Below, one piece after another: positions 4,898 to 61,187 of a stretch of DNA of 64,000 bases (position 1 is its first letter; each line of letters opens with the position of its first letter). Position numbers and translations under genes: made by a program. The DNA is from Paludibacterium paludis (lineage in GTDB: Bacteria > Pseudomonadota > Gammaproteobacteria > Burkholderiales > Chromobacteriaceae). A model generated the notes under the pieces. It was not told the DNA's origin and made no database searches. It saw nothing but the letters and a program-made list of their open reading frames with translations. The stretch is from NCBI RefSeq assembly GCF_018802605.1, contig NZ_CP069161.1, forward strand, positions 1,860,001 through 1,924,000, written 5' to 3'.

Positions 4898-7800
4898 ATG
4901 GTATCGGTGGTGACGGGATCGGGTTTGGGGTTGCATCGGGGCGTGCAGGGGCTGGTGAACGGGCTGGGCCAGTGGGGCGCGGGGGTGACGGGTCGGGGCG
5001 GGGAGCGGGTGCAGGTGAACGCGGCGAGCGGCAACCTGGTGCTGCAGCACCGCGACGAGTTTCTCGCCAACGGCAAGGTCGGCGCGGGGGTGCTGCGCAG
5101 CTACAACAGCCAGGGTCGGGAGGTGGCGGGAGGCAACTGGCGGCTGGGGTTCGCGCGGCGGGTGTTCGGGTTGACGGGAGCGGCGAACACGCCGGGCAGC
5201 GAAGTGTGGCGGGAGGGCGAGGACGGGGCGCAGGTGCGCTACCGCTACGACGCGTCGAGCGGCGGCTATCTTGGCGCGGACGAAGGCGGGGCGGACGACC
5301 GCCTGACGCTGTCGGCGGACGGGACGCAGTGGCGGTGGCGCGACAGCGACAGCGGGCAGAGCGAGCGCTACGCGGCGGCGAGCGGGCGGCTGTTGGCGGT
5401 GACGGGGTCGGACGGGTCGGAGACCGCGCTGTCGTACGGGGTGGACGGGCAACTGGTGCGGATCGCCGGGTCCGGGGGCGAGCGCATCGACGTGGTGTAC
5501 GACAGCGCGCCGGGCAAGGGCTGGCGGGTGAGCGGGCTGCGCACCACGCTGGTGGAGAACGGGGTGGCGCGCACGGTGACGGCGGCGCGCTACGGCTATG
5601 ACGAGCTGGACCGGCTGGTGTCGGTGACCACCGATCTGACGCCGGACGACGACAGCGTGGCGGATGGCCGGGTGTACGTGACGCGCTACGGCTACGACGG
5701 GACGTCGAACCGGCTGGCGAGCCTGAGCCAGAGCGACGGCAGCCGGCTGGAGTTCGGCTACGCGTCAGTGGACGGGACGTGGCGTCTGGCCGAGGTGCGC
5801 GATGTGCGCGGGGCGACGGACGTGCGGGTGACGCGCTTCGGTTACGACGCGGCGCAGCGCGTGACGCAGATCACCGACGCGCTGGGACAGGTGACGCGGC
5901 TGGTGTGCGACGCGGACGGGCGGGTGCGGACGGTGAGCGGCGCGGACGGGCAGCGGCTGGCGGAGGTGGCGTACGACGCGGCGGGGCGGGCGGAGACGCT
6001 GACCGACGCGCAAGGGGGCGTGACGCGCTGGGGGTACGGCGAGCGGGGCGAGCGGGTGTTCGAGCAGGACGCGGCGGGTCGGGTGGTGCGGCGGCGCTTC
6101 GACCCGGCGGGCAATCTGCTGAGCGAAACGCAGTACGCCGGGGCGGCGGGCGAGACGGCGGCGGGCACGGCGCCGGCCGACGCGGCGCAGACGCGCTATG
6201 TGTATGACGCGGCGGAGTCGGGACGGGTGCGCTTTGGCGTGTCGGCGGACGGGCGGGTGACGGAGTGGCGCTACGACGGCCAGGGCCGGGAGGTGGCGCG
6301 GCTGCGCTACCTGGGGGGGGTGACGGCGGCGGAACGAGACGGCGACGAGGCGGCGCTGGCGGCGTGGGCGGCGCGGCAGGCGGTCGGCGAGCGGGTCGAC
6401 ACGGCGTACGACGCGCGCGGTCTGGCGTGCCGGGTGACCGGCTACAGCCGGGTGGACGGCGCGGGCAACGGCGTGGCGGACGGCAGCGAGACGACGGTGC
6501 GCTACGTGTACGACGCCTGGGGCCAGCGGGTGCAGGAAATCGACGGGCGGGGCAACGCGGCGAGCTATGCGTACGACGGGCTGCACCGGGTGGTGTTGGC
6601 GCGTGACGCGCTGGGGAACGCGACGACGACGGTGTACCTGGACGCGGCGCAGCGCACGGAGGTGACGCTGGCCAACGGCCTGACCACGACGACGAGCTAC
6701 GACGCGGCCGGTCGGGTGGTGGCGGAGGCGCGGCAGGCGGCGGGGGTGGAGTTGGGCACGACGACCTATCGCTACGATGCGCTGGACCGGTTGTACGAGG
6801 AGGTGGACGCGAGCGGGCGGTGGCGGCGCTACCTGTACGACGGGCGCGGACGGCGGGTCGGGGAGGTGGACGGGGCGGGATCGCTGACGGCGTACCTGTA
6901 CGACGCGTTGGACCGGCGCATCGTGAGCTACCGGTTCGCCACGGCGGTGGATGCGGCGCGGCTCACCGGGCGGCCGGAGAGCTGGACGCTGGCGGCGCTG
7001 GCGCCAGCGCGCCATGCCGGCACCGACCAGATCGCGCTGGACTTCTATGACGCGGCGGGACGGCGGGTGCGCAGCGTGGAGGTTACCGGCAGTACGGTCG
7101 AGTACCGCTATGACGCGGTCGGCCGGGAAGTAGCGCGGCGGGCCTATGCCAACCGTGTGTCGCCTTCCTATGTGCTTTGGACCGGTGGGAAAGTGTATGA
7201 GGCCATGATGCAAGCCACGGCCCTCCCCGTATCCGATCTGGCGATGCACCGGTGGGCGGTGCCGGGCCAAAATGAGGCCAACGACCGGGTGGAGCGGCGC
7301 TTCTACGATGGGGACGGCCAGCTGACCGGGGTGCTGGACGGGGAAGGCGGACTGACCGAGTACCGCTACGACGCGGCGGGACGGCAGGTGGCGACGGTGC
7401 GCTACGCGACGGCGTGCGCGGCGGCGTTGCGCGCGACGGGCAGTCTGGCGGCGCTGCGGCCGGCCGCCACGGCGGCGGACCAGGTGACGCGGCGCTTCCA
7501 CGACGGCCAGGGACGCGTGGTCGGGGAACTGGACGCGGAAGGCTACCTGAGCGAGTGGCGCTACGACGCGGCGGGCAACCGGGTGCAGACGGTGCGCTAC
7601 GCGACGCCGGCGCGGGCGGGGGAGACGCTGGAGGCGTGCCGTCCGGTGGCGAGCGCAGCGGACCGCGGCGAACGGATCCGCTACGACGCGCTGAACCGGG
7701 AGATCGAGCGCGAGCGCCAGCCGGACGGGCTGGTGGTGCGCACGGTGTACGACCGGCGCGGCAACCGGATCCGGGAAGAGCGGGTGGCGGGAGGCGACAG

Positions 7801-10800
7801 CCGGGTGACGCTGGCGCGCTACGACGCGCTGGGACGGCTGGAGGCGGAACTGGGCGGCGAAGGGGCGGCGGCGCTGGCGGAGCTGGGCGCGACGCCGGAG
7901 GCGGCGCAGGTGGAGGCGGTGTGGCAGCGCTGGGGACGGCGCCACCAGTACGACGCGGCGGGGCGCCGGGTGGCGACGCTGGAGCCGGTGGGGGCGGACG
8001 GCGCGGTGGCGCGCACCCTGTCGGTCTACGACGCGGCGGGCCGGCGCAGCGCGACGGTGAACGGGCTGGGCGAGGTGACCGGGTACCGCTACGACGCGCT
8101 GGGGCAACTGGTGGGCGAGACCCGCTACGGGACGCGCCTGGACGCGGCGGCGCTGGCGAACCTGGCGCCCGGATCGGCGCTGCCGGCCCTGCCGGCGACC
8201 GGCGAGGCCGACCGGGTGACCGGGTACTATTATGTCAAAGGACAGTTGAGAGGGCGGGTCGAAGGGGGCGCTACCCAGATCGCGTATGGGTATACCGCCT
8301 TCGGCGAGGTTTCCTCTCAGGACGACATGCTGTCGTTGGCTCAGGTGTACCGCTATGACCGGGCCGGCCGGCAGGTGGCGCAGGAGCGTGACTTCCGCGG
8401 GCAGACGCGCACGGCGACCGCGCGGCGGGTGGACGTGTTCGGTCGGGTGGTGGAGGAGCGCGACGCGCAGGGCAATGTGCGGCGCCACGCGTACGACCGG
8501 CTGGGGCGGGAAGTGCAGACGGAGGACGCGACCGGGGGGCGGCGCGCGGTGCGCTACGACGCGTTCGGTCGGGTGCTGAGCGTGGTGGACGCGCTGGGTC
8601 AGGAAACGCGGCAGGTGTACGACGACGCGACGGGGAGCGTGACGCTGATCGCCGCGTCGGGGGTGGCGACGCGCACCGAGCGCAACGCGCATGGCGAGAC
8701 GGTGCGGGTGGTGGACGGCGAGGGGCGGGAGACGGTGTACCGCTACGACCGGGACGGACGTCAGGTGGGGGTGGAGACGGCGGCGGGGGCGACGTGCACG
8801 CGCTACGACAGCGCGGGTCAGGTGTTCGAGACGGTGGACACCGGAGGCACGGTGACGCGCTACGCGTATGACGCGGCGGGTCGGGTGCTGAGCCGCACGG
8901 TGGACCCGGCGGGTCTGGCGCTGAGCACGCGTTACCGCTACGACGCGCAGGGCCGGACGGCGAGCGTGACCGACGCGGCGGGGGTGGAGACGGTGACGCG
9001 CTACGACGCGCAGGGTCGGGTGAGCGAGGTGGTGGTCGACCCGGCGGGGTTGGCGCTGAGCACGCGCTACGAGTACAACGCGCGCGGCGACCGCATTGCG
9101 GTGACGACGGCGGCGGGGACGGTGCGCTACGCGTACGACGAACTGGGTCGGCGGGTGGCGGAGACGGTGGACCCGGCGGGTCTGGCGCTGACCACGCGCT
9201 ACGCCTACGACGCCAACGACAATGTGGTGGCGGTGACCGGGCCGGACGGGGCGGTGACGCGCCATGTCTACGATGGCGAGAACCGCCTGAGCGTCAGCGT
9301 CGATGCGCTGGGCTACGTGACGCGGCGCGTCTATGACGCCGCGGGCCGCGAAACCGAAACGGCGCGGCTGGCGCGCCCGGTCTCGCTGGACGGGTTGGGC
9401 GCCGAGCCGGGCGCGGCGCTGATGGCGCGCCTGGTGAGCGGGCCGGACGACGTGGTGACGCGCCAGGCCTACGACGAAGACGGCCGGCTGGTGCTGCGCC
9501 GCGACGCCGCCGGCAGCGTGACGCGCTACCGCTACGACGCGGCGGGCCAGCTCCTGAGCGAGCGGCGCTACGCGCGGCCGGTCACCGAAGCGGGCACCGT
9601 CAACCGGCTGGTCAACGGCCAGTTCGCGCAGCCGGACACCCAGGGCGTGCCGGCCGGCTGGCGCTATACCTTCCAGGGCGCCGGGGCGGCGAGCGGCATC
9701 GACTTCGGCGGCGACTGGCAGCTCAACGGCCAGCCCGGCGAGCACACCGTGTACCTGAAACAGAGCGGGCGCGGCGAGGCGGGCAGCGAACAGCGCCTGG
9801 CGCAGCGCCTTGACGGGATCCGCGCCGGACAGCGCTACGCGTTCTCGGTGTACACCGGCGCGCACCGGGCGACGGCGAGCGTGGCGATCGTCTGGTACGA
9901 CGCCGCCGGCCAGCGGCTGGGCGCCAGCGCCGACACCGCCGCGTCGCGCAACACCGAACGGCTGGGCGGACGCACCCTGGGGAGTTACCGGCAGATCGTC
10001 GCCGAAGGGCAGGCGCCGGCCGGTGCGGTGTACGCCGAGGCGGTGCTGAGCAAGGGCAACACCGCCGACGGGCAAAGCGATTCCTACCTGTTCGCCACGC
10101 GGGCGGTGTTCGAAGCATTGCCGGAGGACGGCGAGCGCGTCGCGGACTGGACCCAGGCGGTGCGCGCCAGCGCCGCCGACCAGGTGGCGTACAAGGTGTA
10201 CGACGCGGCGGGGCGGGTGAGCCTCGCCGTCGACGCGGCGGGCCAGGCGACCGGCTTCGCTTACGACGCGGGCGGTCGCCTGGTGGCGACGCGGCGCTAC
10301 GCGATCCCGCTGGCGGCGGAAACCCTGGCGCAAGCCGAGCAACCGGCCGCGCCCGGCCCGGGCCGCAACCAACTGGCCAACGGCCTGTTCGGCGGCGTCG
10401 CCGGCCCCGGCGTGCCGACCGGCTGGCGCTACCGCGCCGTGGGCGCCACCGGCCAGGTGGGCAGCGGGTTGAGCGCCGACTGGCGCGTGGCCAACGGCCT
10501 GCCCGGCGAGAACACCGTGTACCTGAAGCAGAGCGGGCGTGGCGGCGACGACGCGCTGCAGGAACTGGCGCAGACCGTGAGCGGCATTCAGGCCGGTCAC
10601 CGCTACGCGTTCTCGGTGTACACCGGCGCGCACCGGGCGACGGCGAGCGTGGCGATCGCCTGGTACGACGCGGCCGGGCGCCTGCTGGGGCGCACCGCCG
10701 AGGACGCCGCGGCGCAGAACCGCAGTCAGCAGCCGGGCGGCAAATCGCTCGCCGGCTACCGCCGGCTGGTGGCGCAGGGCGACGCGCCGGCCGGCGCGGT

Positions 10801-13800
10801 GAGCGCCGTGGTGGAACTGCGCAAAGGCAACACCGCTGACGGGCAGAGCGACGCCTACCTGTTCGCCACGCGCGCGCAATTCGAGGAACTGGCGGCGGGA
10901 GGTACCGTCAGCGACTGGAATCCGCGCGTGCTCGACGGTCGCGCCGCCTGGCGCCCGGTACCGGTGGACAGCGCGGCGGACCGGGTCAGCCGCACCGTGT
11001 ACGACGCGGCGGGGCGGCCGGCGTACGAGATCGACGCCGTGGGCGCGGTGACGCGGCACGACTACGACGCGGCGGGCCGCGAGGTGCGCACGGTGCGCTA
11101 CGCCACGCCGTTGAGCGGCAATGATCCGGCGCGGGTGGTGGCGGACGCGGCGCGCGACCGGGTGGAATGGCGCCGCTACGACGCGGCGGGGCGGCGCGTG
11201 CAGCACGGCGACGCGGAAGGCTATGTGACCGCGTGGCGCCACGACGCGGCCGGGCGGGTGACGGAAGAGACGCGCTACGGCGGCCGCGCGGCGGAACCGG
11301 CGGCCGGACAGACGGCGAGCGTGGCCGGCGAGAGCGTGACGCGGCGCTGGCGCTACGACGCGGCGGGCCGCACGCTCGAAGCGGTCGACGCGCTGGGCGG
11401 CGTCACCGCCTTCGACTACGACGCGGCCGGGCGGGTGGTGAGGGAGACGCGCGCCGGCAGCGTGACGCGGCGCGAGTACGACGGCGCGGGGCGGGTGACG
11501 CGGGTGCGGCGCGGCGCGGCCGGGCAGGAAATCGAGGTGGCGCGCTACGAACTGGACGCGCTGGGCAACCGGGTGCGCGAATGGGACGCCAACCGGCACC
11601 TGACGCAGCGCGAGTACGACGCGGCCGGACGGGTGACGCGGGTGACCGACGCCGAGGGTGGCGTGACGCGTAGCGAGTACGACGCGTTCGGCAACGCGGT
11701 GCGGGTGACCGACCCGCGCGGCCAGGTGGGGACCTTCGTCTTCGACGCGGCGAACCGCGCGGTGCGGCACCTCGACCCGGAGGGCTGGGCGACCAGCACC
11801 GAGTACGACGTGTTCGGCCAGGCGGTGCGCATCACGCGCCACGCGGTGGCGAGCGTGTCCGGGGAAACGCCGGCGCCGAACGCGCGCGACGCGGTGACGC
11901 GCCTCGAACACGACGCCTTGGGGCGGCAGACGGCGATCACCGACGCCGAAGGCTACACCGAGCGGCTGACCTACGACGCGTTCGGCAACAAGACCGGCTA
12001 CACCACCAAGACGGGCGGAGTGTACCGCTACCAGCACGACCGGGCCGGACGGGTGGTGGAGGAAACCGACCCGCTGGGGGTGGTGAAGCGCTTCGAATAC
12101 GACGCGCGCGGCAACCGCACGGCGCAGATCGAGGCGGCGGGGCGGGCGGAGCAGCGCACCACGCGCTATGGCTACGACGCGCTGGACCGCTTGGTGAGCC
12201 AGCGCGGCGACGCGGTGACGACCTACAGCGTGGCCGAGGGCGGGCCGCGCCAGGTGATCCCCAGCGAGAGCTACCGCTACGACGCGGCGGGGAACCGGGT
12301 GGAGCGGGTGGACGCCAACGGCAACGTCACCCGCACCGCGTACGACAGCCTGGGTCGCAAAGTGGCGGAGCGCGGCGCCGACGGGGCGCTGACGCGCTGG
12401 GAGTACGACGGCGCGGGGAACGTGACGTGCGAGCGGCGCTACGCGACAGCGGTGGGGCTGGCGGCGGACGGCGGCGTGGCGGAACCGGCGGACGGGGCGG
12501 CGCGCGAGACGCGCTACGAGTACGACGGCAACAACCGCCTGGTGCGTACCATTGTGCCCAAACAGCTGGTTGGTCGCCTGGATGACAGCAGCGGCAACTA
12601 CCGGCTCGACGAAACGGACCTGATCACCACACGGCGTTACGACGCCAACGGCAACGTGATCCAGGAGACCGACGCGCGCGGCAACAGCGTGCGCCGTTAC
12701 TACGACCGCCGCGGCAACGCCACGCTGGCGATCGACGCCGAAGGCTACGTGACCGCGTGGCGTTACGACGGCAACGGCAAAGTGACCGAACAGCTGCGCT
12801 ATGCGGCGCGCCCGGCGCTGCCCAATCCGGACGGACTGAGCGAAGCCGAGATCGTCGCGCGCCTGACGCCGGGGGCGGATGACCGCATCAGCCGCTACCG
12901 CTATGACCGGCTGGGCCGCGTCATGGAAGAGACACAACTGAACGTGGCGCAAGGCAGCGTGGACAGCAAGGGTGTCTTGAGTGAGCGCATCGCCGCGGTG
13001 ACCACGCGCTACGAGTACAACGGTCTGGGCAAAGTGGTGCGCAAGATCGACGGGGCGGGCGGCGTGAGCGACTGGCAGTACGACGCGCTGGGGCGGGAAG
13101 TGCGGCGCCAGGAGGCGGGATTCACCGACTTCGAAGGGCAGGTGGTGCGGCCGACCACCGACACCGAGTACGACGGGGTGGGTAATGTGGTGCGCAGCGT
13201 GCGGCGCGGCAAGGACGACAACCGGGAGAGCGACGACCAGATCACGGTGAACCGCTACGGCGCGGGCGGGCGGCTGACGAGCCAGACGGACGCCGCGGGG
13301 GCGACGACCGAGTACGAGTACGACGCGGCGGGGAACGTGACGCGGACGCGGCGGGCGCGGCGGCAGGCGGATGGCAGCCGGGTGACGGACACCACGAGCT
13401 ATCGCTACGACGGAGCGAACCGGCAGGTGGAACGGCGCGACGAAGCGACGGGGATGCGCTTCGAGACACGCTACACGGTGTACGGCGAGGTGGCGGGCAA
13501 GCGCACCAGCCCGAGTGGCGAAGGGGTGTGGCAGGAGTTCGCCGAGTACGACACGGCGGGGCGGGTGCTGAAGAGCAACAGCGGCAGCGGTGTGACCAAG
13601 GGGTATGTCTACGACGAGAACGGCAACGCCACGCTGGTCATGGAGTCCGGTGGCGGTGGCATCGATCCGGCCGATCCCGAGCGGCTGGGTCGCGACCTGC
13701 GCGGCATGACCCTCTGGCAAATGCTCAACGACGCCACCTTGCGCAAAACGGTGAGCGTGTACGACAAACGCGGCCAGCACATAGCCAGCAAGGAGCAGAA

Positions 13801-19819: not shown

Positions 19820-20487
19820 TGACTGTTATTGCCGTTCGTAAACTGGACAAAGCCATTTCTCAAGCATTGCTGGAGTGGCTATCCCCCCACGGCTTTATCG
19901 CTGCCGAGGGTGGGGGGGTGGAGCGTTGGTTGGGTAATCGCTATGACTTCATCGGTGCGGTGGTTAATCGTGTTGGGGGGCTGAATCGCATATCTCCGTT
20001 TGGACAGATGGGTTTTTCTGATAGGAAAAACATTTACTCCTATTTCATGTCTGACAACCCGCAGGAGTCCAGCAAGATTGCGGTTGATGTGCAATTGAAA
20101 TATGCGCACTTTGTGAAGAGCTGGACGACGGATATGCTGTGCCAAGAAATTGAGCAATTGGATGCTTTTTTGGCAGAGTTGCGGGTTTTTGTTTTTGAAA
20201 AACTATATCCTGCATTGCAGGCGTATGATTCACCAGAAAAGATACTCGCTGCGTATCTCAAGAAAAATGAGAAAGATCGACGCAGTTTTGATCCGCCAAG
20301 CTGGTTTGGGTTTAGTTCAGCGTTGACAGGTTTGATTCTGGCGCGCCTGTACTCCCCAGAGGATTACCCAGGCTTAAAGCAACGCTATGCGGGTGAGTTT
20401 GAGGGTCTGGATGAAGAAAAGCTTTCCCGGGGCAAACGACTGATCGCCTATCTGGATCAGCCAGGAGTGCTGCCACCGCTGAAATGA
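19819..20487 (+). CDS. Candidate immunity protein for the RHS-A tip
   Basis: A 222-aa protein starting at the ATG at 19819, which shares one base with the RHS-A stop (TAATG). It is low in GC like the toxin tip and unlike the GC-rich Rhs shell. I do not recognise the family. It has no signal peptide or clear membrane segment, so it is probably cytoplasmic. The sequence is rich in aromatic and acidic residues (for example DFIGAVVNRVGGLNRISPFG and YSPEDYPGLKQRYAGEF). Position and coupling argue for an immunity protein protecting against the RHS-A nuclease-like tip; this is inference from the standard polymorphic-toxin arrangement. The frame also offers a TTG at 19810, which I consider less likely. 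Confidence 0.7.
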   Translation: MTVIAVRKLDKAISQALLEWLSPHGFIAAEGGGVERWLGNRYDFIGAVVNRVGGLNRISPFGQMGFSDRKNIYSYFMSDNPQESSKIAVDVQLKYAHFVKSWTTDMLCQEIEQLDAFLAELRVFVFEKLYPALQAYDSPEKILAAYLKKNEKDRRSFDPPSWFGFSSALTGLILARLYSPEDYPGLKQRYAGEFEGLDEEKLSRGKRLIAYLDQPGVLPPLK

Positions 20488-23361: not shown

Positions 23362-23402
23362 TTGTCTTTGTGTGTCACTGGGTGATATAGTGTGTGCCAC
23401 AC
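23362..23402 (+). promoter_or_regulatory. Promoter and candidate operator of the toxin-antitoxin pair
   Basis: TTGTCT (23362-23367) and TATAGT (23386-23391) are separated by 18 bases, a good sigma-70 promoter. Immediately after the -10 lies the inverted repeat GTGTG-C-CACAC (23392-23402), and the toxin ATG follows at 23416. The palindrome position fits autorepression by the HTH antitoxin; that role is inferred. Confidence 0.6.
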
Positions 23403-44550: not shown

Positions 44551-44565
44551 GGTGTTTTACCGCGA

Positions 44566-45243: not shown

Positions 45244-45492
45244 TCGACTAAACAATTTGGATTTTCCCGGGACAACTTGCCTGAGAGAAACGATTTCTGC
45301 TGGGCAGATCAGGGGATATTCCATGGTATCGGTGGTGACGGGATCGGGTTTGGGGCTGCATCGGGGCGTGCAGGGGCTGGTGAACGGGCTGGGCCAGTGG
45401 GGCGCGGGGGTGACGGGTCGGGGCGGGGAGCGGGTGCAGGTGAACGCGGCGAGCGGCAACCTGGTGCTGCAGCACCGCGACGAGTTTCTCGC
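45244..45492 (+). repeat. Tandem duplication at the start of RHS-B, copy 1
   Basis: This segment, holding the conserved leader block, the ribosome site and the first 57 codons of the Rhs gene, is repeated at 45527-45771. The copies differ by two single-G length changes in the leader (CCCGGG/CCCGG and AGGGGA/AGGGA) and a few bases near the left edge. The start codons are 279 bases apart, a multiple of three, so the two copies are in frame. Confidence 0.9.
45248..45279 (+). promoter_or_regulatory. Conserved upstream block, RHS-B copy 1
   Basis: CTAAAC ... GGATTTTCCCGGGACAACTTG-type block matching the RHS-A block at 4839-4870. It lies 43 bases before the first in-frame ATG (45323). Surrounding DNA is AT-rich, which suits a promoter. 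Confidence 0.5.
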
Positions 45493-45526
45493 GGTGGTTC
45501 AAAGTGGTAGAAATAAAAGTTGTTGT

Positions 45527-45771
45527 TCGCTAAACCATTGGATTTTCCCGGACAACTTGCCTGAGAGAAACGATTTCTGCTGGGCAGATCAGGGATATTC
45601 CATGGTATCGGTGGTGACGGGATCGGGTTTGGGGCTGCATCGGGGCGTGCAGGGGCTGGTGAACGGGCTGGGCCAGTGGGGCGCGGGGGTGACGGGTCGG
45701 GGCGGGGAGCGGGTGCAGGTGAACGCGGCGAGCGGCAACCTGGTGCTGCAGCACCGCGACGAGTTTCTCGC
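45527..45771 (+). repeat. Tandem duplication at the start of RHS-B, copy 2
   Basis: Second copy of the leader plus first 57 codons, joined directly to the full RHS-B frame. About 34 unrelated-looking AT-rich bases (45493-45526) separate the copies, though weak similarity continues into the bases upstream of copy 1. Confidence 0.9.
45530..45559 (+). promoter_or_regulatory. Conserved upstream block, RHS-B copy 2
   Basis: Second copy of the block (CTAAAC ... TTTTCCCGGACAACTTG), 42 bases before the ATG at 45602. If this copy is active, translation from 45602 gives the same N-terminus as RHS-A. Confidence 0.5.
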
Positions 45772-51700: not shown

Positions 51701-52909
51701 AGCCTGGGTCGCAAAGTGGCGGAGCGCGGCGCCGACGGGGCGCTGACGCGCTGGGAGTACGACGGCGCGGGGAACGTGACGTGCGAGCGGCGCTACGCGA
51801 CAGCGGTGGGGCTGGCGGCGGACGGCGGCGTGGCGGAACCGGCGGACGGGGCGGCGCGCGAGACGCGCTACGAGTACGACGGCAACAACCGCCTCATACG
51901 CACCCTCGTGCCGGGCCAGACCGTGGGGCAGCGCGACGCGCAGACCGGCAACTACGCCTTGGGGCAGCAGGACCTGGTGACCGTGCGGCGCTACGACGCC
52001 AACGGCAATGTGGTTCAGGAGACCGACGCGCGCGGCAACGGCGTGCGCCGTTACTACGACCGCGCGGGGCGCAAGACGCTGGAACTGGATGCCGCGGGCT
52101 ACGCGACCCGCTGGCGCTATGACGGCAACGGCAAGGTCGTGCAGGAAATTCGCTATGCGGCGCGCCCGGCGCTGCCCAATCCGGACGGACTGAGCGAAGC
52201 CGAGATCGTCGCGCGCCTAGCGCCGGGGGCGGACGACCGCATCGTCGAATTCGACTACGACGCGCTCGGGCAGGTGCGCGCCGAGCGGCGCCTGAACGTG
52301 GCGGTGGCGACGGCGGACGGCGGCGCCACGACCACCACCACCGTGACCACGCGCTACGAGTACAACGGTCTGGGCAAAGTGGTGCGCAAGATCGACGGGG
52401 CGGGCGGCGTGAGCGACTGGCAGTACGACGCGCTGGGGCGGGAAGTGCGGCGCCAGGAGGCGGGATTCACCGACTTCGAAGGGCAGGTGGTGCGGCCGAC
52501 CACCGACACCGAGTACGACGGGGTGGGTAATGTGGTGCGCAGCGTGCGGCGCGGCAAGGACGACAACCGGGAGAGCGACGACCAGATCACGGTGAACCGC
52601 TACGGCGCGGGCGGGCGGCTGACGAGCCAGACGGACGCCGCGGGGGCGACGACCGAGTACGAGTACGACGCGGCGGGGAACGTGACGCGGACGCGGCGGG
52701 CGCGGCGGCAGGCGGATGGCAGCCGGGTGACGGACACCACGAGCTATCGCTACGACGGAGCGAACCGGCAGGTGGAACGGCGCGACGAGGCGACGGGGAT
52801 GCGCTTCGAGACGCGCTACACGGTGTACGGCGAGGTGGCGGGCAAGCGCACCAGCCCGAGTGGCGAAGGGGTGTGGCAGGAGTTCGCCGAGTACGACACG
52901 GCGGGGCGG
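45602..52909 (+). repeat. Long direct repeat, copy 2 (RHS-B shell) shared with RHS-A
   Basis: Counterpart of 4898-13562. Near-identical blocks: about 45602-47714, 47975-48920, 49120-49976, 50323-51892 and 52350-52909. Diverged islands lie between them. Same orientation as copy 1, so recombination between the copies would remove the 40.7 kb between. Confidence 0.85.
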
Positions 52910-55900
52910 ATACAGCGCAGCAATGTCGGCGGCGTGACGAAAGTCTTTCTGTACGACGCCAACGGCAATGCGACGCTGACCGTGGAATCGGGCAAAGAGG
53001 ACGGCGACGAACTGCGTCGCCTGACGATCGACCAGATCCTGGCGCAGATCGATCCGAAGCGGAGTCCGAACGGCAACGTGGAAACGGCGCAGCTGCGGCT
53101 GACGCTGAGCGAGTACGACGCGGCGAACCGGCACGTGGGCACCTACCAGCCGAAAATGACGAACGCGCGGGATGTGGCGCAGGTGCAGTCGCAGTCATGG
53201 GTGAGCGCGGTGCCGCAGGATGGCCGTGGCGGGGTGGTGACGGCCGGGCCGGTGGGTTCCGTGGCCGGCGGGACGGGGAGCAATCCGTTGGCGGGGGGAA
53301 CGACGGGGTCCACCGCGGTGACCGTCGGCCGGAGCCAGGCATGGTTGTCAGGAATCAAGGTCGACTACGAGAGCATGCCCGACGAGAACTGGCCGCCGCC
53401 GGTGTCGCGCTCGCTTAACGCAACGCTCATGCACCTCGAGGTGCCGATTCCGCCTTCGGTCGTGGTGCTGGGGGGCGGTGGTCTGACACTGACAACCACC
53501 GTCACGATTTATCATCGCACTTACTACAACCAGAGAGAGACATTCACCGCGACATTCCACGCGGCGGCCGGCGCGAGTGTCATGAGTGTCGATATCCCTA
53601 TCGGCGGAGCCATGCGCAGTATTGCGCTGGTGGATGAAGGGTATTTGGGGGGGAAAGGTCCCGATTGGCGTAAAACAGGAGAGCATTGGGAGATTCCAAG
53701 GGAATATGCTCCGGTATTCGATGTTTCCTATTCGCTGATCAAGGGACTGCCCAACGGCACTCAGCACCCCGTATTGAGCAGCAGCCAGTCCGGACAAGTT
53801 CGCTCATTCTTGAAGGGCGGCAAGTTCATGGAGGCCGGATCGTCCACTTCCCGGGGAGATGGGCCGACAATACCCGTAAATGGTGTCGCCTGGTCCTCCG
53901 TTGGCATGTGGAACGGGTTGTATTTTCAGGGGCAGCCCCAGAACGCCACCCGGCTGTTGTTGCTGACACGCCCGCAGGGCAGTGGAGGCGGCTGGAACGT
54001 GACCGGGGTGCCACGGATGGTGGTCGGCGGGCAGGCGATGCCGGGCTGGTTCGCCGTCGACTGGTCGGGCATGGGGCGCGGCAACTTCGAGTTCCGCTAC
54101 CTGGCGCTGGATGACGCCGGAAACGTGCTGAACGCCCAGCAGGGGGCGATGACGCTGGCGGATGGCGGCGCCTCGATCGCCCAGAATGGCGCGGCGGTGG
54201 ACAAGGCGCTGATGTACGGCGACGGGACGGTGAATCTCACCGGGCTCGGCGCGGCGGCGGTGGGCGCGCGGATCCGCTTTCGTACGCCGGGCGGCGCCTG
54301 GAGCGCGGCCTACGGACTGGGTCCGGCGCAGTACCAGGGCAGCCTTCCCGGGTGGTTCCAGTTCCAGCCGGCGGCCTACGGCCTGGCGGGCGGAACGACC
54401 TACGAGTACCAGCTGGAAACCCTCAACGGCGCCGGGCAGGGGCTGGGCACCTTGCTGGGCCGCTTCCGCCCGGGCGAGCCGGGGTCGGTGAGCCAGCCGG
54501 TGGCGTGGCGCGACCAGCCGCAAATCGTGCATCTGGGCAACCAGCCGCTCAGCGCGGTGCGCGGGGTGATGCTCTATCGCCCGGCCGACAGCGGCGCGCC
54601 GTTCGCCGAGGCGGCGCTGGTGAAGGCGTCGGACGGCACATTCGACTGGGACAGCGCGGCGTTGGCGCGTGGGCTCGCCGCTCCTCGCGACTACGAGTTC
54701 GAGTACCGCCTGTTCGATGCGCAAGGCGCGATGGTGAATCGGGCGGCGGGGCAACTTACCCTGGGCGGCGAGCAGCCGGTGTCGGTAACGAGTCGCGGGC
54801 TGGCGCTGCCGCTGCAGGTGACCTTCGCGCCGGGCAACGACAAGGCGCAGGCGCTGCGTCTGGCGTATCGCCCGGCCGGGGGCGCGGGCGCCTGGACGGA
54901 AGTGCGCCTGCCGCGCAGCGCGCAAGGCACCTTCGCGCTGGAGGCGTCGGGCCTGGCGGCGGGCGATTACGATTACCGCTATCAGTTGGAGGGCGCCGAT
55001 GGAGCGCTTCTGACCGGCGCCGATGGCGTGGTGCTGCAACAGGAGGGACACATGCGGCGCGCCGACGGCGCGCAGGTCCGCGACCTGAAATGGGTGATCA
55101 CCGGGGTGGCCAACAGCGAGGCGACCATCGTGCGGCGGCAGAGCTACACCGCCTTTGGCGAGGTGGCGAGCGAAACGGACGGCCGCGGCAACGTGACGCA
55201 GTTCGTCTACAGCACGGCGGGCAAACTCCTCGTCAAGCAGAACGCGGCGGTGTCGGTGACGCTGGAGAACGGCAAGACGGAGACGCAGACACCGCTGACC
55301 CAGTACCGCTATGATGCGTCGGGCAACCTGGTGGCGACGCTGGACGCCAACGGCCAGCTCAACCGGCTGGAGTGGCTGGCCGGCAGCCAGAACGGCCAGG
55401 GGCGGGTCGCGCGCGAGCGCCATGCCGACGGCGGTGTGGTGACGCACGGTTACGACGGCTTCGGCAACCTGCGCCAGCGCGTCGACGAAATCGGCCGGCG
55501 CAGCGATTACCGCTATACGGCGCTGAACCAGCTGGCGCAGATCGACCGGGCGGCGCGCGCCGACGGCACGCGTGGCTACGACGCCTACGACTACGACGAA
55601 GCGGGCCAGCGCATCGCGCACCGCAGCACGGCGGACGGCAAGACCGAACTGCGCGACAGCACGGCCTACGACAGCCTGGGACGGGTGCTCTCGACGGTGA
55701 GCGCGGCGGGGCGGCAGGTCCGCTACCGCTACGACTGGGATGCGATGCTCCTTGGCGCGGGCGGCGCCATCGTGGGCGGCTGGCGTACCGTCACGACCGA
55801 TGCCAACGGTCGCCAGAGCGTGGACGACGTCAGCCTGTTCGGCCTGAAAGTGCGCCACGTCGACCTCGGCAACCACACCTTCACCTACCGCTACAACAAC

Positions 55901-58900
55901 GCCGGACAGATCGTGCGCCAGCAGGGCAGTACCGGGCAGTCGCTGCGCTACGAGTACTACGGCAACGGCTACCAGAAGAGCCTGGCGGACGAGGCGACCA
56001 ACAGCTACACGCTGTACGAGTACGACCGGGACGGCAACAAGACCTTCGAAGGCTACACCACGCTGAGCGGCGGCGCGCGCGAGTTCTACCAGTACGCGGA
56101 CATCCGCTATGACGCGCTCAACCGCGTGACCGAAATCCAGGATCCCAAGTTCCTGACCCGCTACGAGTACGACGCGGTGGGCAATCGGCGCCGGGTATAC
56201 GCCGAGTACCATGACGGCACCAACGGCAACCGCCGCACCCAGGACTACTGGTACCGCTACGACGCGATGAACCGCTTCGTGGTCACGCGCGGCAGCCTGG
56301 TCGACGAGCGGATCACCCGCGGCGCGGCGGGCGGCGACGGCGTGGACATTCTGTACAACGCCGCCGGCGAACGCCGCCAGGCCGTCAACGCGGCGGACGG
56401 CACGGTGGAAACCTACGCCTACACGGCCGACGGCTTCCTGGCGACGACCTGGATCAATGGCCGGCTGGCGGCGGAACGCGACAACGACCGGTTGGGCCGG
56501 GCCGTGAGCTATCGCAGCTACCGCTGGGACAGCGACGGCGGGCTGAAGAGCCGGACCGACTCGGTGTACGACAACGACGCCAAACTGCTCAGCCAGATCA
56601 GCGACGGCACCACCACGCGCCAGACGCTGATGGCCGACGGCACGCTGGAGAAGAGCGAGCAGCGCAGCGGCGACAGCGTGACGACCAGCTACTACGGCTA
56701 CGAATGGTGGGACGAAGCCAAACAGGCGACGATCACCGCGCAACCGTATAACCCGAACGCGCCGGGCTGGCAAAAAGGCACCTCGCATCTGGTGTACGAC
56801 GTGAACGGTCACCTGAAGGAGGCGCGCGACGAAGTGGGCCAGCGCAGCCTGCGCTACACCAACAACGCGCAAGGGCTGGTGCTCAAGCGCGAGGAAATCG
56901 ACAAGGGCACGACCTACAAGCGCCAGGAATATTACTATCTGGACGGGCGCCAGGTGGGGTCGGTGGGCAACGATGGCCCGAGCCGCGTCGACTACGCCAG
57001 GGCGCTGGCGCAAGGCCCGTTGGGCAACCGCAAGGATGATTACCGCAACGGCGCGCCGGTCAACTCGGCGGACTTCGACCAGAACTACGAACCGATCGGC
57101 CCGAACTATCCGGCGCAGGTGCCGGGAATGGTGACGGTGCGCAGTGGCGATACGTTGCAAAGCCTCGCGGCGGCGCTGTGGGGCGACAAGGCGATGTGGT
57201 ACCTGCTGGCGGACGCCAATGGTCTGAGTGGCGGCGAAACGCTGGTGGCGGGTCAGATGCTGAAGGTGCCGAACAAGGTGACGAACGTGCACAACACGAG
57301 CGCGACGTTCCGGGTCTACAACCCGGGCGAAGCGATCGGGGACACCTCTCCGACGTTGCCGGATCCGCCGCCTCCGCCACGTTCGTCGGGCGGGGGATGC
57401 GGCGGGATCGGCGGCATCTTTGTCGCCGTGGTGGCGGTAGTGGCGGCCGTATTCACCGCTGGGGCCGCCATTTCGGTGATCGCGCCTTCGCTCGTTTCGA
57501 CGGGAGGCATCATGGCGACCGGTGCCGCCGCGCTGACCGGCGGCCTGGGCGGATTCGGACTGGCCGCCGCGGCGATCGGCGGCGCGGTGGGGTCGATCGC
57601 CAGCCAGGGTGTGGCGATGGCGATGGGCATGCAGGAAGGGTTCTCCTGGAGCCAGGTCGGGAAGGCCGCGCTGGGCGCGGGACTGACGGTGGGGCTTGGC
57701 GCGGCGATGCAAGCCGGGCCGGTGGCGCAGGCTTTTGCCAATACGTTCGGTGCGGCGGCGCCCTATGCCCAGGCCGCGGCGGCGAATGCCGCCTCGCAAG
57801 GCGTGGCGATGCTGTCGGGGCGGCAAACATCATTCAGTTGGACCGGCGTCGCCGCCAGCGTGCTGGGTCAGGCGGTGGGTCAGTCCGCGTGGGGCAAATC
57901 GCTGAGCCGTGGCTGGCAGGACTCCCTGCAATCGAACGGCCTGTCCGGCGAATTGTCCGCGACGCTGGCGCGCATGCCTTGGAATTATACCGCCGCCGTG
58001 CTGGGTGACTTCGCGGCGGGTGAGCGGGGCCAGCAGGCGTGGGGGCATGCCTTCATGCAAAGCGGGGCGCAAGCGGTGGGCGACTACGGTTCCGGCATGG
58101 CCTTGAGCGATGCCGCACAAGGTAATCTGGACAGTGCCTGGGGTGAGGGCGGGCATGCGCGAGTGCTCGCTCATATGGGCGTAGGAGCCGTCGGCTCGGC
58201 GTGGATGGAACAGGATATCGCCGCCGGCGCGCTGGGTGCTGGAGCGAGCGCCTTGGCGGGAGGCTGGCTGGCCGGTCGCGTGGACGACGCCACCGGGCGG
58301 TATCTGGCTCCGGAGCTGGGCCGATTGGCGGGCTCGGCCGCCGCGCAGCTGGCCGGACGTGATGCCTTGATGGGCGGCGCGGCCGGTTGGAACACCACCG
58401 AGAATAACTACCTGCGCCATGACCAGGTGACCCGGTTGCTGGAGCGCCTGCGGAGGGCTTCGCCGGACGAGCAGGTCCGATTGCTGGCCGAAGCGCGCGA
58501 ACTGGACAAGAGGCAACGTTTCACCGATCTCGCGGGTAATGAAGAACTGCAGCGTTCCGTGGCGGATGGCGTGGCCGAATTGCGTCAGTTGCGGGTGTCG
58601 TCGACGCTGGGATTCCGCGCCGTGAGCGAGCTGGCCGTGTTGGCCGATGGACAATCCTCGCAACTGGCCCGGGCGCGGCGCATGCCGGTCATGCGCGATT
58701 TGCAGGTTGTCGAGCGCGAGCGGCAAAAAATCGAGGCACGCAATGCAACGTTCGACGCCATGGCCGGAGGACCGTTCGGCACGGCCGGGTATTTGATTGG
58801 CGAAATATGGGGGCAAGGTGACAGAGGCGCGGAGCTCGGCGGTATCGCCGATGGCGCGATGACCGGGCTGGCGTTCCGGCAAGGAGGCGTTGCCGGCGCC

Positions 58901-59401
58901 GCCAGGGTGCGAACGGCGTTCGAGAGCGTGGGCGAGCGCAGCTTGTCGGTTGACGCGCGGAACCCGTATGGGGTGAGGTACAATGTTTCAAGCACAGAAT
59001 CTATTAAGATTGCAAGACCTTCGTGGCGCCAGTCTGAATTGGATGTAGGGTTGGACTTGCTGGATCAAGGATATCGCCCGCAAGTGTCATTCAAGAATGG
59101 CCTTGAAGTGCCATATGGAACCAAGGGTAGTGTTAGGCCAGAGTATTACAGAGATGGCATGAGTGTAGAAGTTAAGAATTACGACGTAGAAACAGAAGCG
59201 GGTCGCTTAAGGCTTGTTCGGAATGTGGTGAATCAGGCTGCGCAGCGACTTTCTAATCTGCCAGAAAATACAGTTCAGAACTTAACTATTGATGTGCGCG
59301 GACAGAGTATTTCTCGTGGCGAACTCAATCGTATGTTAGAGAGTATCGAGAGAAAATCTGGCGGATCTATTTCTAGGGAAAATATTAATATTCTGCGCTA
59401 G
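45602..59401 (+). CDS. RHS-B: giant Rhs/YD-repeat polymorphic toxin with LysM module and REase-like tip
   Basis: 4599 aa from the ATG at 45602 (4692 aa if translation begins at the in-frame ATG at 45323, which would repeat the N-terminus). No signal peptide or PAAR domain. Rhs entry motif near residues 36-52, then a long YD-repeat shell nearly identical in DNA to RHS-A for most of the first 7.3 kb. No CBM-like inserts; a short unique stretch replaces them at about 49977-50320. Then a beta-rich region (about residues 2780-3160), YD repeats, LysM (about 3844-3891), a proline linker, Gly/Ala-rich hydrophobic segments, and a tip from about residue 4453 where GC drops. The tip has RPEYYRDGMSVEVKNY with E4514, D4518, E4523 and K4525, which fits a PD-(D/E)XK-type nuclease; SISRGELNRMLE follows. 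Toxin activity is inferred. Confidence 0.85.
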   Translation: MVSVVTGSGLGLHRGVQGLVNGLGQWGAGVTGRGGERVQVNAASGNLVLQHRDEFLANGKVGAGVLRSYNSQGREVAGGNWRLGFARRVFGLTGAANTPGSEVWREGEDGAQVRYRYDASSGGYLGADEGGADDRLTLSADGTQWRWRDSDSGQSERYAAASGRLLAVTGSDGSETALSYGVDGQLVRIAGSGGERIDVVYDSAPGKGWRVSGLRTTLVENGVARTVTAARYGYDELDRLVSVTTDLTPDDDSVADGRVYVTRYGYDGTSNRLASLSQSDGSRLEFGYASVDGTWRLAEVRDVRGATDVRVTRFGYDAAQRVTQITDALGQVTRLVCDADGRVRTVSGADGQRLAEVAYDAAGRAETLTDAQGGVTRWGYGERGERVFEQDAAGRVVRRRFDPAGNLLSETQYAGAAGETAAGTAPADAAQTRYVYDAAESGRVRFGVSADGRVTEWRYDGQGREVARLRYLGGVTAAERDGDEAALAAWAARQAVGERVDTAYDARGLACRVTGYSRVDGAGNGVADGSETTVRYVYDAWGQRVQEIDGRGNAASYAYDGLHRVVLARDALGNATTTVYLDAAQRTEVTLANGLTTTTSYDAAGRVVAEARQAAGVELGTTTYRYDALDRVYEEVDASGRWRRYLYDGRGRRVGEVDGAGSLTAYLYDASDRRIVSYRFATAVDAARLTGRPESWTLAALAPARQVASDLVALDFYDAAGRRVRSVGTGWEVTDYRYDAAGREVARRAYARALAGGAQVRVGKQVYDLLMQSGTAPVDLMASSWLQPVAEEANDRVERRFYDGDGQLSGVLDGEGGLTEYRYDAAGRQVATVRYATACAAALRATGSLAALRPAATAADQVTRRFHDGQGRVVGELDAEGYLSEWRYDAAGNRVQTVRYATPARAGETLEACRPVASAADRGERIRYDALNREIERERQPDGLVVRTVYDRRGNRIREERVAGGDSRVTLARYDALGRLEAELGGEGAAALAELGATPEAAQVEAVWQRWGRRHQYDAAGRRVATLEPVGADGAVARTLSVYDAAGRRSATVNGLGEVTGYRYDALGQLVGETRYGTRLDAAALANLAPGSALPALPATGEADRVTEYAYDRAGRLRMRVEGGELQVSSTYTAFGELASLSDPLLLAQFYRYDRAGRQVAQERQISGQTRTATERRVDVFGRVVEERDAQGNVRRHAYDRLGREVQTEDGTGGRRAVRYDAFGRVLSVVDALGQETRQVYDDATGSVTLIAASGVATRTERNAHGETVRVVDGEGRETVYRYDRDGRQVGVETAAGATRTRYDSAGQVFETVDAGGTVTRYAYDAAGRVLSRTVDPAGLALSTRYRYDAQGRTASVTDAAGVETVTRYDAQGRVSEVVVDPAGLALSTRYEYNVRGDRIAVTTAAGTVRYAYDELGRRVAETVDPAGLALTTRYAYDANDNVVAVTGPDGAVTRHVYDAANRLTHTIDADGHVMERRYDAAGHELATTQYAIAIVLPSTGAERNSLLAALRPDAADRCFRQFYDRDGRVTARLDALGSLTEYRYDASGRVIETRRRATLVASAADGVVPTVPDSAADRVSRTVYDAAGRPAYEIDAVGAVTRHDYDAAGREVRTVRYATPLSGNDPARVVADAARDRVEWRRYDAAGRRVQHGDAEGYVTAWRHDAAGRVTEETRYGGRAAEPAAGQTASVAGESVTRRWRYDAAGRTLEAVDALGGVTAFDYDAAGRVVRETRAGSVTRREYDGAGRVTRVRRGAAGQEIEVARYELDALGNRVREWDANRHLTQREYDAAGRVTRVTDAEGGVTRSEYDAFGNAVRVTDPRGQVGTFVFDAANRAVRHLDPEGWATSTEYDVFGQAVRITRHAVASVSGETPAPNARDAVTRLEHDALGRQTAITDAEGYTERLTYDAFGNKTGYTTKTGGVYRYQHDRAGRVVEETDPLGVVKRFEYDARGNRTAQIEAAGRAEQRTTRYGYDALDRLVSQRGDAVTTYSVAEGGPRQVIPSESYRYDAAGNRVERVDANGNVTRTAYDSLGRKVAERGADGALTRWEYDGAGNVTCERRYATAVGLAADGGVAEPADGAARETRYEYDGNNRLIRTLVPGQTVGQRDAQTGNYALGQQDLVTVRRYDANGNVVQETDARGNGVRRYYDRAGRKTLELDAAGYATRWRYDGNGKVVQEIRYAARPALPNPDGLSEAEIVARLAPGADDRIVEFDYDALGQVRAERRLNVAVATADGGATTTTTVTTRYEYNGLGKVVRKIDGAGGVSDWQYDALGREVRRQEAGFTDFEGQVVRPTTDTEYDGVGNVVRSVRRGKDDNRESDDQITVNRYGAGGRLTSQTDAAGATTEYEYDAAGNVTRTRRARRQADGSRVTDTTSYRYDGANRQVERRDEATGMRFETRYTVYGEVAGKRTSPSGEGVWQEFAEYDTAGRIQRSNVGGVTKVFLYDANGNATLTVESGKEDGDELRRLTIDQILAQIDPKRSPNGNVETAQLRLTLSEYDAANRHVGTYQPKMTNARDVAQVQSQSWVSAVPQDGRGGVVTAGPVGSVAGGTGSNPLAGGTTGSTAVTVGRSQAWLSGIKVDYESMPDENWPPPVSRSLNATLMHLEVPIPPSVVVLGGGGLTLTTTVTIYHRTYYNQRETFTATFHAAAGASVMSVDIPIGGAMRSIALVDEGYLGGKGPDWRKTGEHWEIPREYAPVFDVSYSLIKGLPNGTQHPVLSSSQSGQVRSFLKGGKFMEAGSSTSRGDGPTIPVNGVAWSSVGMWNGLYFQGQPQNATRLLLLTRPQGSGGGWNVTGVPRMVVGGQAMPGWFAVDWSGMGRGNFEFRYLALDDAGNVLNAQQGAMTLADGGASIAQNGAAVDKALMYGDGTVNLTGLGAAAVGARIRFRTPGGAWSAAYGLGPAQYQGSLPGWFQFQPAAYGLAGGTTYEYQLETLNGAGQGLGTLLGRFRPGEPGSVSQPVAWRDQPQIVHLGNQPLSAVRGVMLYRPADSGAPFAEAALVKASDGTFDWDSAALARGLAAPRDYEFEYRLFDAQGAMVNRAAGQLTLGGEQPVSVTSRGLALPLQVTFAPGNDKAQALRLAYRPAGGAGAWTEVRLPRSAQGTFALEASGLAAGDYDYRYQLEGADGALLTGADGVVLQQEGHMRRADGAQVRDLKWVITGVANSEATIVRRQSYTAFGEVASETDGRGNVTQFVYSTAGKLLVKQNAAVSVTLENGKTETQTPLTQYRYDASGNLVATLDANGQLNRLEWLAGSQNGQGRVARERHADGGVVTHGYDGFGNLRQRVDEIGRRSDYRYTALNQLAQIDRAARADGTRGYDAYDYDEAGQRIAHRSTADGKTELRDSTAYDSLGRVLSTVSAAGRQVRYRYDWDAMLLGAGGAIVGGWRTVTTDANGRQSVDDVSLFGLKVRHVDLGNHTFTYRYNNAGQIVRQQGSTGQSLRYEYYGNGYQKSLADEATNSYTLYEYDRDGNKTFEGYTTLSGGAREFYQYADIRYDALNRVTEIQDPKFLTRYEYDAVGNRRRVYAEYHDGTNGNRRTQDYWYRYDAMNRFVVTRGSLVDERITRGAAGGDGVDILYNAAGERRQAVNAADGTVETYAYTADGFLATTWINGRLAAERDNDRLGRAVSYRSYRWDSDGGLKSRTDSVYDNDAKLLSQISDGTTTRQTLMADGTLEKSEQRSGDSVTTSYYGYEWWDEAKQATITAQPYNPNAPGWQKGTSHLVYDVNGHLKEARDEVGQRSLRYTNNAQGLVLKREEIDKGTTYKRQEYYYLDGRQVGSVGNDGPSRVDYARALAQGPLGNRKDDYRNGAPVNSADFDQNYEPIGPNYPAQVPGMVTVRSGDTLQSLAAALWGDKAMWYLLADANGLSGGETLVAGQMLKVPNKVTNVHNTSATFRVYNPGEAIGDTSPTLPDPPPPPRSSGGGCGGIGGIFVAVVAVVAAVFTAGAAISVIAPSLVSTGGIMATGAAALTGGLGGFGLAAAAIGGAVGSIASQGVAMAMGMQEGFSWSQVGKAALGAGLTVGLGAAMQAGPVAQAFANTFGAAAPYAQAAAANAASQGVAMLSGRQTSFSWTGVAASVLGQAVGQSAWGKSLSRGWQDSLQSNGLSGELSATLARMPWNYTAAVLGDFAAGERGQQAWGHAFMQSGAQAVGDYGSGMALSDAAQGNLDSAWGEGGHARVLAHMGVGAVGSAWMEQDIAAGALGAGASALAGGWLAGRVDDATGRYLAPELGRLAGSAAAQLAGRDALMGGAAGWNTTENNYLRHDQVTRLLERLRRASPDEQVRLLAEARELDKRQRFTDLAGNEELQRSVADGVAELRQLRVSSTLGFRAVSELAVLADGQSSQLARARRMPVMRDLQVVERERQKIEARNATFDAMAGGPFGTAGYLIGEIWGQGDRGAELGGIADGAMTGLAFRQGGVAGAARVRTAFESVGERSLSVDARNPYGVRYNVSSTESIKIARPSWRQSELDVGLDLLDQGYRPQVSFKNGLEVPYGTKGSVRPEYYRDGMSVEVKNYDVETEAGRLRLVRNVVNQAAQRLSNLPENTVQNLTIDVRGQSISRGELNRMLESIERKSGGSISRENINILR

Positions 59402-59412
59402 TGAGGTATTAA

Positions 59413-59829
59413 ATGACTGTTGGGCTTAAGTTGGGTAGTATTACCGATGAAATTGGGAGTGATGATTTTTTTCATTCCTTCTTTTCTACTATTAGTGGAA
59501 ATCTTGAGTCGGCTGGATGGGGGAGTCGGTTTCCAGTTTTATTGAATAAGCTCTATCAGGGGGAGCTGAGCCAGGAGTGGGCGGCAGATGCTTTGGACGA
59601 GCTGGAAGCCATTCGAAAGATGTTTTCAGAGTTGCCTGTTACGGATGTTATATGGGATCTGGAAGATAGAAAAAAAACACCTCCATGGGGTGATGTTATT
59701 AGTAATGATATTACTGATCTTTCAAATTACTTTGTCACATCAACTGGTAGGCCGCTTTTCTCAGTGATCAGAGAGTGCCTAGAGGAACTTCGCGATAGTG
59801 GCGGTGTCTTGAAGGTGGTTGCGTATTAG
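59413..59829 (+). CDS. Candidate immunity protein for RHS-B (Imm70-like)
   Basis: 138 aa, starting 11 bases after the RHS-B stop, with a GAGG ribosome site. Low GC like the tip. The sequence GLKLGSITDEIGSDDFFHSF, FSTISGNLESAGWGSRFPVL and LYQGELSQEWA followed by VIWDLEDRKKTPPW looks like the Imm70 family of polymorphic-toxin immunity proteins as I remember it. No signal peptide, so it is probably cytoplasmic. The family name is from memory and the pairing is from position. Confidence 0.72.
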   Translation: MTVGLKLGSITDEIGSDDFFHSFFSTISGNLESAGWGSRFPVLLNKLYQGELSQEWAADALDELEAIRKMFSELPVTDVIWDLEDRKKTPPWGDVISNDITDLSNYFVTSTGRPLFSVIRECLEELRDSGGVLKVVAY

Positions 59830-60698: not shown

Positions 60699-61187
60699 GT
60701 GTTTGTTGAGTCAAAAAAAATCCCTAATAAGGTTGAAGTGCTTGGTTTTGAGCAGGTAGATAAAAATGCTCACATGATTGAGTGGCTGAGGAAGGGTGAG
60801 AATTGCCGGGAGTTTATTACTCTGGATTTAGAGGGTGAACTCTATGCTCAGGATCAAGGTGCTCAGCTTTTATCAGTTCATTTAAATTCGCAGCCAAGCT
60901 TTGAAACAAGAGTACGCAAAGACGAATCGGGTAAGCAGGCTATAGTGACGCACTTTTCTGTCATTTTCCCAATTTCTTTGCGCGTAAAGGCATCGAATGG
61001 GGTTGTTTGGTTGTTGGATGTTATTAAGCCGGCAATAATAATCCGTACAAATGGTATACTACCGCCGAAGTTCGACAGTTTGTCCCTCAAAATCGCTGTT
61101 TTTGACTCCTTCGCTCTAATAAACATGCGGATTCCAGAGGTGTTTTTGCCAAACTTATTGTGGTGGCACGTTGGTAACGAAATGTAA
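60699..61187 (+). CDS. Unknown low-GC gene, 162 aa
   Basis: The best start is the GTG at 60699 (VFVESKKIPNKVEVLGFEQV), with a GGGG ribosome-like site at about 60689-60692; TTG codons at 60663 and 60687 are alternatives. It reads LDLEGELYAQDQGAQLLSVH, VTHFSVIFPISLRVKASNGV, then WLLDVIKPAIIIRTNGILPP. Predicted soluble and beta-rich. No family recognised. It may be another immunity or cargo gene of the Rhs tip array. The IS1634-type transposase begins 39 bases later. Confidence 0.6.
   Translation: MFVESKKIPNKVEVLGFEQVDKNAHMIEWLRKGENCREFITLDLEGELYAQDQGAQLLSVHLNSQPSFETRVRKDESGKQAIVTHFSVIFPISLRVKASNGVVWLLDVIKPAIIIRTNGILPPKFDSLSLKIAVFDSFALINMRIPEVFLPNLLWWHVGNEM

Follow-up and report, generated by a model that had tools for sequence, protein, structure and literature searches.

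In this work, we have analysed a stretch of 64,000 nucleotides from Paludibacterium paludis (order Burkholderiales; G000:C1:1860001-1924000), here called the window, and in it an operon of flagellar type that we name locus III. The window comes from a 4.07-Mb single-contig genome with the handle G000; other handles in G denote genomes and those in L gene stretches examined. Locus III is a single plus-strand operon (24438-43041) coding for an export gate, an ATPase complex, an MS ring, a rod, a P ring with the chaperone FlgA, a hook cap, a hook, a short FliM-like protein, FliN and a sigma factor of the FliA/WhiG type. It is followed by a minus-strand set of three genes (43043-45156) and is flanked on both sides by giant Rhs genes (4898-19819 and 45257-59401). 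The original prediction had placed a flagellar-type operon between two giant Rhs genes, with a TPR operon in between; this arrangement is confirmed, and the operon is intact.

The export-machine set FlhA, FlhB, FliPQR, FliHIJ and FliF is present. On the plus strand, fliQ (24438-24704, assigned by homology to the relatives' loci and by position) is followed by fliR (24714-25484, E-value 2.2e-50), flhB (25487-26548, E 3.3e-97), the locus III flhA (26567-28630), flgF (28627-29298), flgG (29325-30110), flgA (30046-31050) and the P ring gene flgI (31116-32234, E 1.3e-118). Then come flgB (32256-32618) and flgC (32615-33052), both matching below the curated cut-off, fliE (33049-33348), the MS ring gene fliF (33385-34812), the open reading frame (ORF) orfX (34809-35324), fliH (35321-35995), the ATPase gene fliI (35992-37317), fliJ (37314-37760, a weak match) and a fliK-like ORF (37727-38425), assigned by its position and by a C-terminus conserved in relatives, whose start is uncertain. 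The operon ends with flgD (38394-38837), the hook gene flgE (38837-40036), the short FliM-like gene (FliMN_C, 40033-40785), fliN (40798-41115, below the curated cut-off), fliO (41112-41540, a weak match), fliP (41548-42306) and the sigma factor gene (42316-43041, E 1.2e-35, below the subfamily cut-off). The minus-strand set codes for a 380-aa TPR protein (TPR380, 43043-44185), a conserved helical protein of 122 aa (44182-44550), whose fold gave no useful PDB match, and a 196-aa TPR protein (TPR196, 44566-45156), a possible substrate chaperone.

Among the scanned ORFs of 24438-45156 there was no match to filament or hook-filament junction genes, and FlgH is missing from the window. MotA/MotB stator genes and secretins were likewise not matched among the scanned locus ORFs, neither having been searched for genome-wide; the P ring protein FlgI is present. 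Apart from the secretin, these absences agree with what had been predicted for the locus. The claim that FliG was missing too has to be corrected, since orfX codes for a half-length FliG-like protein that the FliG_C profiles miss. These profiles have two matches in the genome, both outside the window, and the genome also holds four FlhA, two FlgH and fourteen flagellin-type domains, with no such domain (Flagellin_N) near the window. Five and six flagellin-type genes are clustered at G000:C1:623887-628566 and 3098295-3105910. The flagellin and FliG matches might have been parts of locus III lying elsewhere; by these markers, full gene sets being unchecked, the FliG_C, FlgH and flagellin matches fit two other flagella with their own FlhA. 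In addition, a BLAST search of 49 stretches from the loci of relatives, with the flagellin and FliG sequences of this genome as queries, gave no match at E 1e-3. In the FlhA tree, locus III and its relatives group apart from the flagellar and type III secretion system (T3SS)-like copies of the same genome, with support 94/98 and long outgroup branches. The fourth FlhA-like gene (G000:C1:2898343-2900304) is perhaps from an injectisome.

A FlhA pattern search found 29 loci, of which 28 are close, mainly in Chromobacterium, Aquitalea, Massilia, Duganella, Janthinobacterium, Undibacterium, Noviherbaspirillum, Andreprevotia and Chitinimonas; the other belongs to a Planctomycetales bin (FlhA 42%). 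Gene order is kept with rotation, fliQ-flhA coming first in one locus type and last in the other. In relatives, flgH sits between flgA and flgI, where the three tested gave E-values of 2e-44 to 2e-40, or else behind fliA, as in Aquitalea and C. alticapitis (E-values of 6e-47 and 8e-46). The TPR block of the window is inverted, and flgH may have been lost in the rearrangement that inverted it. In the order sample, the FliF type of locus III is spread over ten families. None of the five genus mates that were searched (G001-G005) has it, which marks the locus as sporadic.

The co-occurrence of the two components was analysed in the same 399 genomes of the order, using as queries the first 250 residues of Rhs1, the protein of the first Rhs gene, and the FliF of locus III, and scoring per genome only the best 6 (Rhs) or 4 (FliF) candidate stretches. 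Both searches showed a clear E-value gap, between 6.5e-23 and 5.3e-8 for Rhs and between 5.7e-68 and 1.4e-52 for FliF. The FliF type was found in 14 genomes and the Rhs class in 14. Eleven genomes have both, three only the FliF type (G012, G405 and G073), three only the Rhs class and 382 neither (Fisher p 1.5e-16). Counted by genus, 10 have both, 3 only FliF, 1 only Rhs and 145 neither (p 1.4e-12).

Physical linkage was examined in 37 genomes that carry the locus and were chosen regardless of Rhs. Pairs of handles that equal sizes or equal coordinates marked as one genome entered the count once (G035=G082, G036=G109, G069=G102, G012=G083, G103=G349, G105=G453 and G107=G445), and the Planctomycetales genome (G104) was left out. 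Our results show that 34 of the 37 have an Rhs gene of this N-terminal class, so the locus does not stand mostly without Rhs genes, and that 21 of the 37 have an Rhs gene no more than about 5 kb away from a locus gene; it may stand on either flank, and its orientation varies. By chance, about one linked genome would be expected, as roughly estimated for some two Rhs genes in some 5.8 Mb. The linked genomes are G000, G035, G108, G036, G081, G085, G086, G087, G088, G090, G093, G095, G099, G100, G101, G105, G106, G132, G152, G325 and G455. Two of them (G035, weak at E 8.5e-4, and G108) were counted from an Rhs N-terminus only, at a contig end, and two (G036 and G081) from an Rhs body with LysM whose N-terminus is not on that contig. 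The Rhs genes stand on both sides of the locus in G000, G085 and G093, behind fliA in G090, divergent from fliQ in G106 and from TPR380-fliQ in G325, and behind the TPR genes in G035, G108 and G455.

In the window, Rhs1 (4898-19819, plus strand, 4973 aa) and Rhs2 (45257-59401, plus strand) are giant proteins with RHS repeats and LysM in the pieces scanned. The two are 91% alike in their first 1565 residues but only 60% in the long stretch that comes next, and the last parts cannot be aligned. A different small ORF follows each gene: one of 225 aa overlaps the end of Rhs1 (19810-20487, plus strand, no Pfam match), and one of 138 aa lies directly after Rhs2 (59413-59829, plus strand); by position both are candidate immunity genes. 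With RHS repeats, a variable C-terminus and a small gene behind, these proteins look like polymorphic Rhs toxins, with predicted toxin and immunity roles. Across the class, the N-terminal consensus is MVAIVSGNGLGL...S...LG..G..G....G..GE.VYVNAANGNLVLQ, and K and R are absent from the first 12 residues of the seven Rhs compared, while L101 and L105 have one K there. The Rhs2 promoter box and first 60 codons are duplicated in tandem (45257-45602, 95% alike), so Rhs2 may start at either copy. The largest open frames listed for the class are of 12840 aa (G094:C18:4073-4795) and 12451 aa (G089:C8:110283-111005).

How could such proteins leave the cell? Rhs proteins are cargo of the type VI secretion system (T6SS), Chromobacterium violaceum included, according to the available part of one report (PMC13324451), and 30 of the 37 locus genomes have TssC; the Rhs might then travel by the T6SS or another known Rhs route, and the neighbourhood be incidental. 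We consider this highly improbable. As had been predicted, the Rhs N-terminus has no PAAR or VgrG-binding part, its 500-600 aa matching only the RHS repeat and, weakly, DUF6531, and TssC (PF05943) is absent not only near the locus but from the whole genome of the window, on which ground T6SS carriage was rejected there. TssC, the only T6SS component searched, is also absent from G073, G090, G094, G108, G306 and G455 (7 of the 37 with G000, some of them drafts), and six of the seven carry the Rhs class, in four cases next to the locus (G000, G090, G108 and G455). Nor does incidental placement explain the co-occurrence. Pfam found no TcB-type domain in the N-terminal pieces; TcA was not searched for.

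A different view of the cargo is that the machine exports Rhs proteins for coating of the surface or matrix, through LysM and adhesion, and not for poisoning neighbours. LysM does precede the C-terminal part, and for the last parts Pfam gave no toxin domain but only a weak PT-VENN pre-toxin match in Rhs2. We regard this reading as unlikely, given the divergence of the Rhs pair towards unalignable last parts and the different small ORF behind each, which has the usual look of toxin-immunity pairs.

The Rhs genes also share a promoter. Upstream of them lies a sigma28-like box, CTAAAC-N15-TGGATACcTTG, found on the plus strand of the window as CTAAAC-N15-CGGACAACTTG before Rhs1 (4839-4870) and in two copies at Rhs2, before the gene (45248-45279) and before the second N-terminus (45530-45559). 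With a matrix built from 14 sites and a score threshold of 14, the box was found in 23 of the 27 Rhs genes taken from genomes with the locus and, counting only the 15 that had not contributed to the matrix, in 11 (L091, L092 and L097 are from close relatives and not independent), as against 1 of 405 upstreams of other locus genes, many of which are inside operons, and 11 of 3000 random 300-mers. Left out of the 27 were genes whose start was not found by pattern (L077, L078, L080, L085, L086, L098, L110, L111, L120 and L121), a false start (L104), repeats (L089, L117 and L119) and genes of genomes without the locus (L109 and L112). A pattern from these sites matches three times in the genome of the window, always before the two Rhs genes (control 0). 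A strict pattern from the sites of five genomes gave nine matches in the 37 genomes (control 0): seven directly before Rhs starts, two of them new, and two in G096, where rve-type integrases stand directly behind the box as if replacing an Rhs gene, one of these boxes adjoining locus III. This pattern matches in only 6 of the 37 genomes, that of the window not among them; it misses most genomes because the -10 part varies. The box is also present at Rhs genes far from the locus (G092 and G096). A role before structural genes was rejected, the best scores upstream of fliQ, flgF, fliA, TPR380 and orf122 being below 10; upstream of TPR196 the score is 22.2 in L026 and 12.5 in the window.

This promoter bears on two further explanations. 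It is hard to reconcile with the idea of locus III as a third flagellum in decay, within an island that doubles as landing site for Rhs genes and insertion sequences, since a landing site would not give distant Rhs genes the common box. Rhs genes or boxes do have integrase or transposase ORFs nearby, the window has no FlgH, and an in-frame stop interrupts FliF in G073, where no Rhs was found, though also in G306, where Rhs is kept. The gene set is nevertheless open, its order is conserved in the mapped loci and the FliF type is spread over ten families, and we give this explanation very little credence. The other explanation is that ordinary flagella secrete the Rhs and locus III is merely a co-inherited relative. 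All 33 locus genomes of one FlhA survey have at least one further FlhA, and an ordinary FliA might read a box that resembles the sigma28 box. However, FliF of some kind occurs in 276 of the 399 genomes, yet the strong Rhs class in only 14, where it tracks locus III; that FliF is so much more frequent argues against a route through ordinary flagella. At the flagellins of the window's genome a single canonical sigma28 box was found (TAAAG..GCCGAT at 627008). Its -10 element is different, and the eight flagellin loci examined yielded no Rhs-type box, a thin contrast because the other flagellins showed neither box type. We consider secretion by ordinary flagella quite improbable.

We propose that locus III is a third, non-motility flagellar-type secretion machine with giant Rhs proteins as its late substrate, and we judge this to be probable. 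Co-occurrence, linkage and the regulatory tie all support the earlier idea that the machine was repurposed for Rhs, which it would export. In ordinary flagella, sigma28 switches on flagellin, and on our best reading the Rhs takes flagellin's place as a late substrate of the sigma28 class. The layout suggests that the operon acts early and supplies a sigma factor by which the late genes would be read; no anti-sigma factor was identified. The operon would provide the gate and ATPase, an MS ring, a C ring whose FliG is half-length, and the rod, P ring and hook, to which relatives add an L ring. On completion of the hook, the locus's own FliA-like sigma factor would turn on the Rhs genes via the CTAAAC-N15-TGGATA box. 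LcrH chaperones are of the TPR type. The TPR proteins of the window perhaps hand the Rhs chain to the machine. The conserved N-terminus would then thread the unfolded chain through the gate, and the Rhs would fold outside the cell around its C-terminal toxin.

Several observations weigh against this proposal. A chain of 4600 to 12800 aa would be very large for a flagellar gate, and one of 5000 aa or more would far exceed common flagellar substrates. The second half of the orfX model matches the middle domain of FliG (99-194) about as well as its C-terminal part (237-322) and may correspond to either. Both FlgH of the genome lie outside the window copy of the locus, so passage of the outer membrane is unproven in the window's system. 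The in-frame stop in the FliF of G073 (G073:C4:16127-17533) falls in a genome with no Rhs of the class found, as is also the case for G012 and G405 (a draft, 87% complete), which makes 3 of the 37. In a further 13 of the 37 the Rhs was found only elsewhere (G069, G079, G084, G089, G091, G092, G094, G096, G097, G098, G103, G107 and G306); contigs end near the locus in several of these, a 122-aa Rhs fragment adjoins it in G092, and a box followed by an integrase adjoins it in G096. Conversely, the Rhs class stands without the FliF type in three of the 399 (G250, G320 and G367), and because only the best candidate stretches were scored, these searches may have missed cases. As to the promoter, 4 of the 27 Rhs genes score below 14, a threshold set after the scores were seen, and in 100 shuffles per gene the best single-gene scores were 8.7 to 19.1. 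Two upstreams were read in genomes without the locus, and one of them passes (L109, 15.1) while the other fails (L112, 1.7). Moreover, the pattern used in the window's genome and the strict pattern were made partly from sites that they find.

How does locus III compare with known systems? With the bacterial flagellum it shares the gate, ATPase, MS ring, rod, hook, P ring, FliA-type sigma factor and late-gene promoter logic. It differs in having no filament, hook-filament junction or stator genes, in its half-length FliG and in the proposed late substrate. The available text on the injectisome, the non-flagellar T3SS (Abby and Rocha 2012, PMC3459982), likewise describes a flagellum turned to protein delivery with loss of motility parts. 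In contrast to the injectisome, locus III keeps rod, hook and P ring, shows no secretin match among the scanned ORFs and has a FlhA apart from the T3SS-like one. In Myxococcus, a needle-less T3SS* with LcrH chaperone homologues is used in predation and tied to bacterial killing, as the sections available describe (PMC10433427); these systems lack FlgBCDEK, FliEG, FlgH and MotAB (PMC3459982, from its available part). Locus III resembles T3SS* as a stripped T3SS with possible chaperones of the TPR type and a possible link to killing of bacteria, but retains rod and hook, and the available text of PMC10433427 holds no link of Rhs to T3SS*. Flagellar genes without filament are described in Buchnera, for which protein secretion was proposed, and in Lysobacter, for which it was reported (PMC3459982 and PMC9927559, in the parts available). 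Those are reduced sets in non-flagellated bacteria, whereas locus III is conserved, comes in addition to other flagellar sets and has its own candidate cargo. Finally, a Colicin E5/D-like RNase accompanies firmicute flagellar operons, and in the accessible part of that work flagellar delivery is posed as a question (Zhang 2012, PMC3482391); a toxin-type gene with a flagellar operon is common to both cases, while the phylum is another and the toxin an RNase, not an Rhs.

We lean, by a narrow balance, towards a second, separate conversion of the flagellum to toxin delivery, in which a non-rotating hook-basal body, present in many families of one order, would inject giant Rhs toxins into other cells or display them as a sigma28-controlled 'filament' in bacterial competition. 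In the open-access papers searched we found none that ties Rhs to a flagellar export locus, and a report outside them may exist. If true, cells without a T6SS would have an additional export route for giant Rhs toxins. The flagellum would have been turned to toxin delivery a second time, through an intermediate with the hook kept and the filament and motor genes gone, which bears on the origin of the injectisome. The proposal is testable by gene deletion in culturable soil and water bacteria.

Other genes surround these elements. Integrases of the rve type lie close to Rhs genes, in the window at 20858-22000 and also in L143 and L150. Between Rhs1 and fliQ (23392-24107) there is a small ORF pair that, judged by eye, resembles a HigB/RelE-type toxin with a helix-turn-helix antitoxin. 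At the right end of the window (63685-64000) a LivH-like permease fragment was recognised by eye, and upstream of Rhs1 (1-4730) lie two arginine succinyltransferase genes and AstB.
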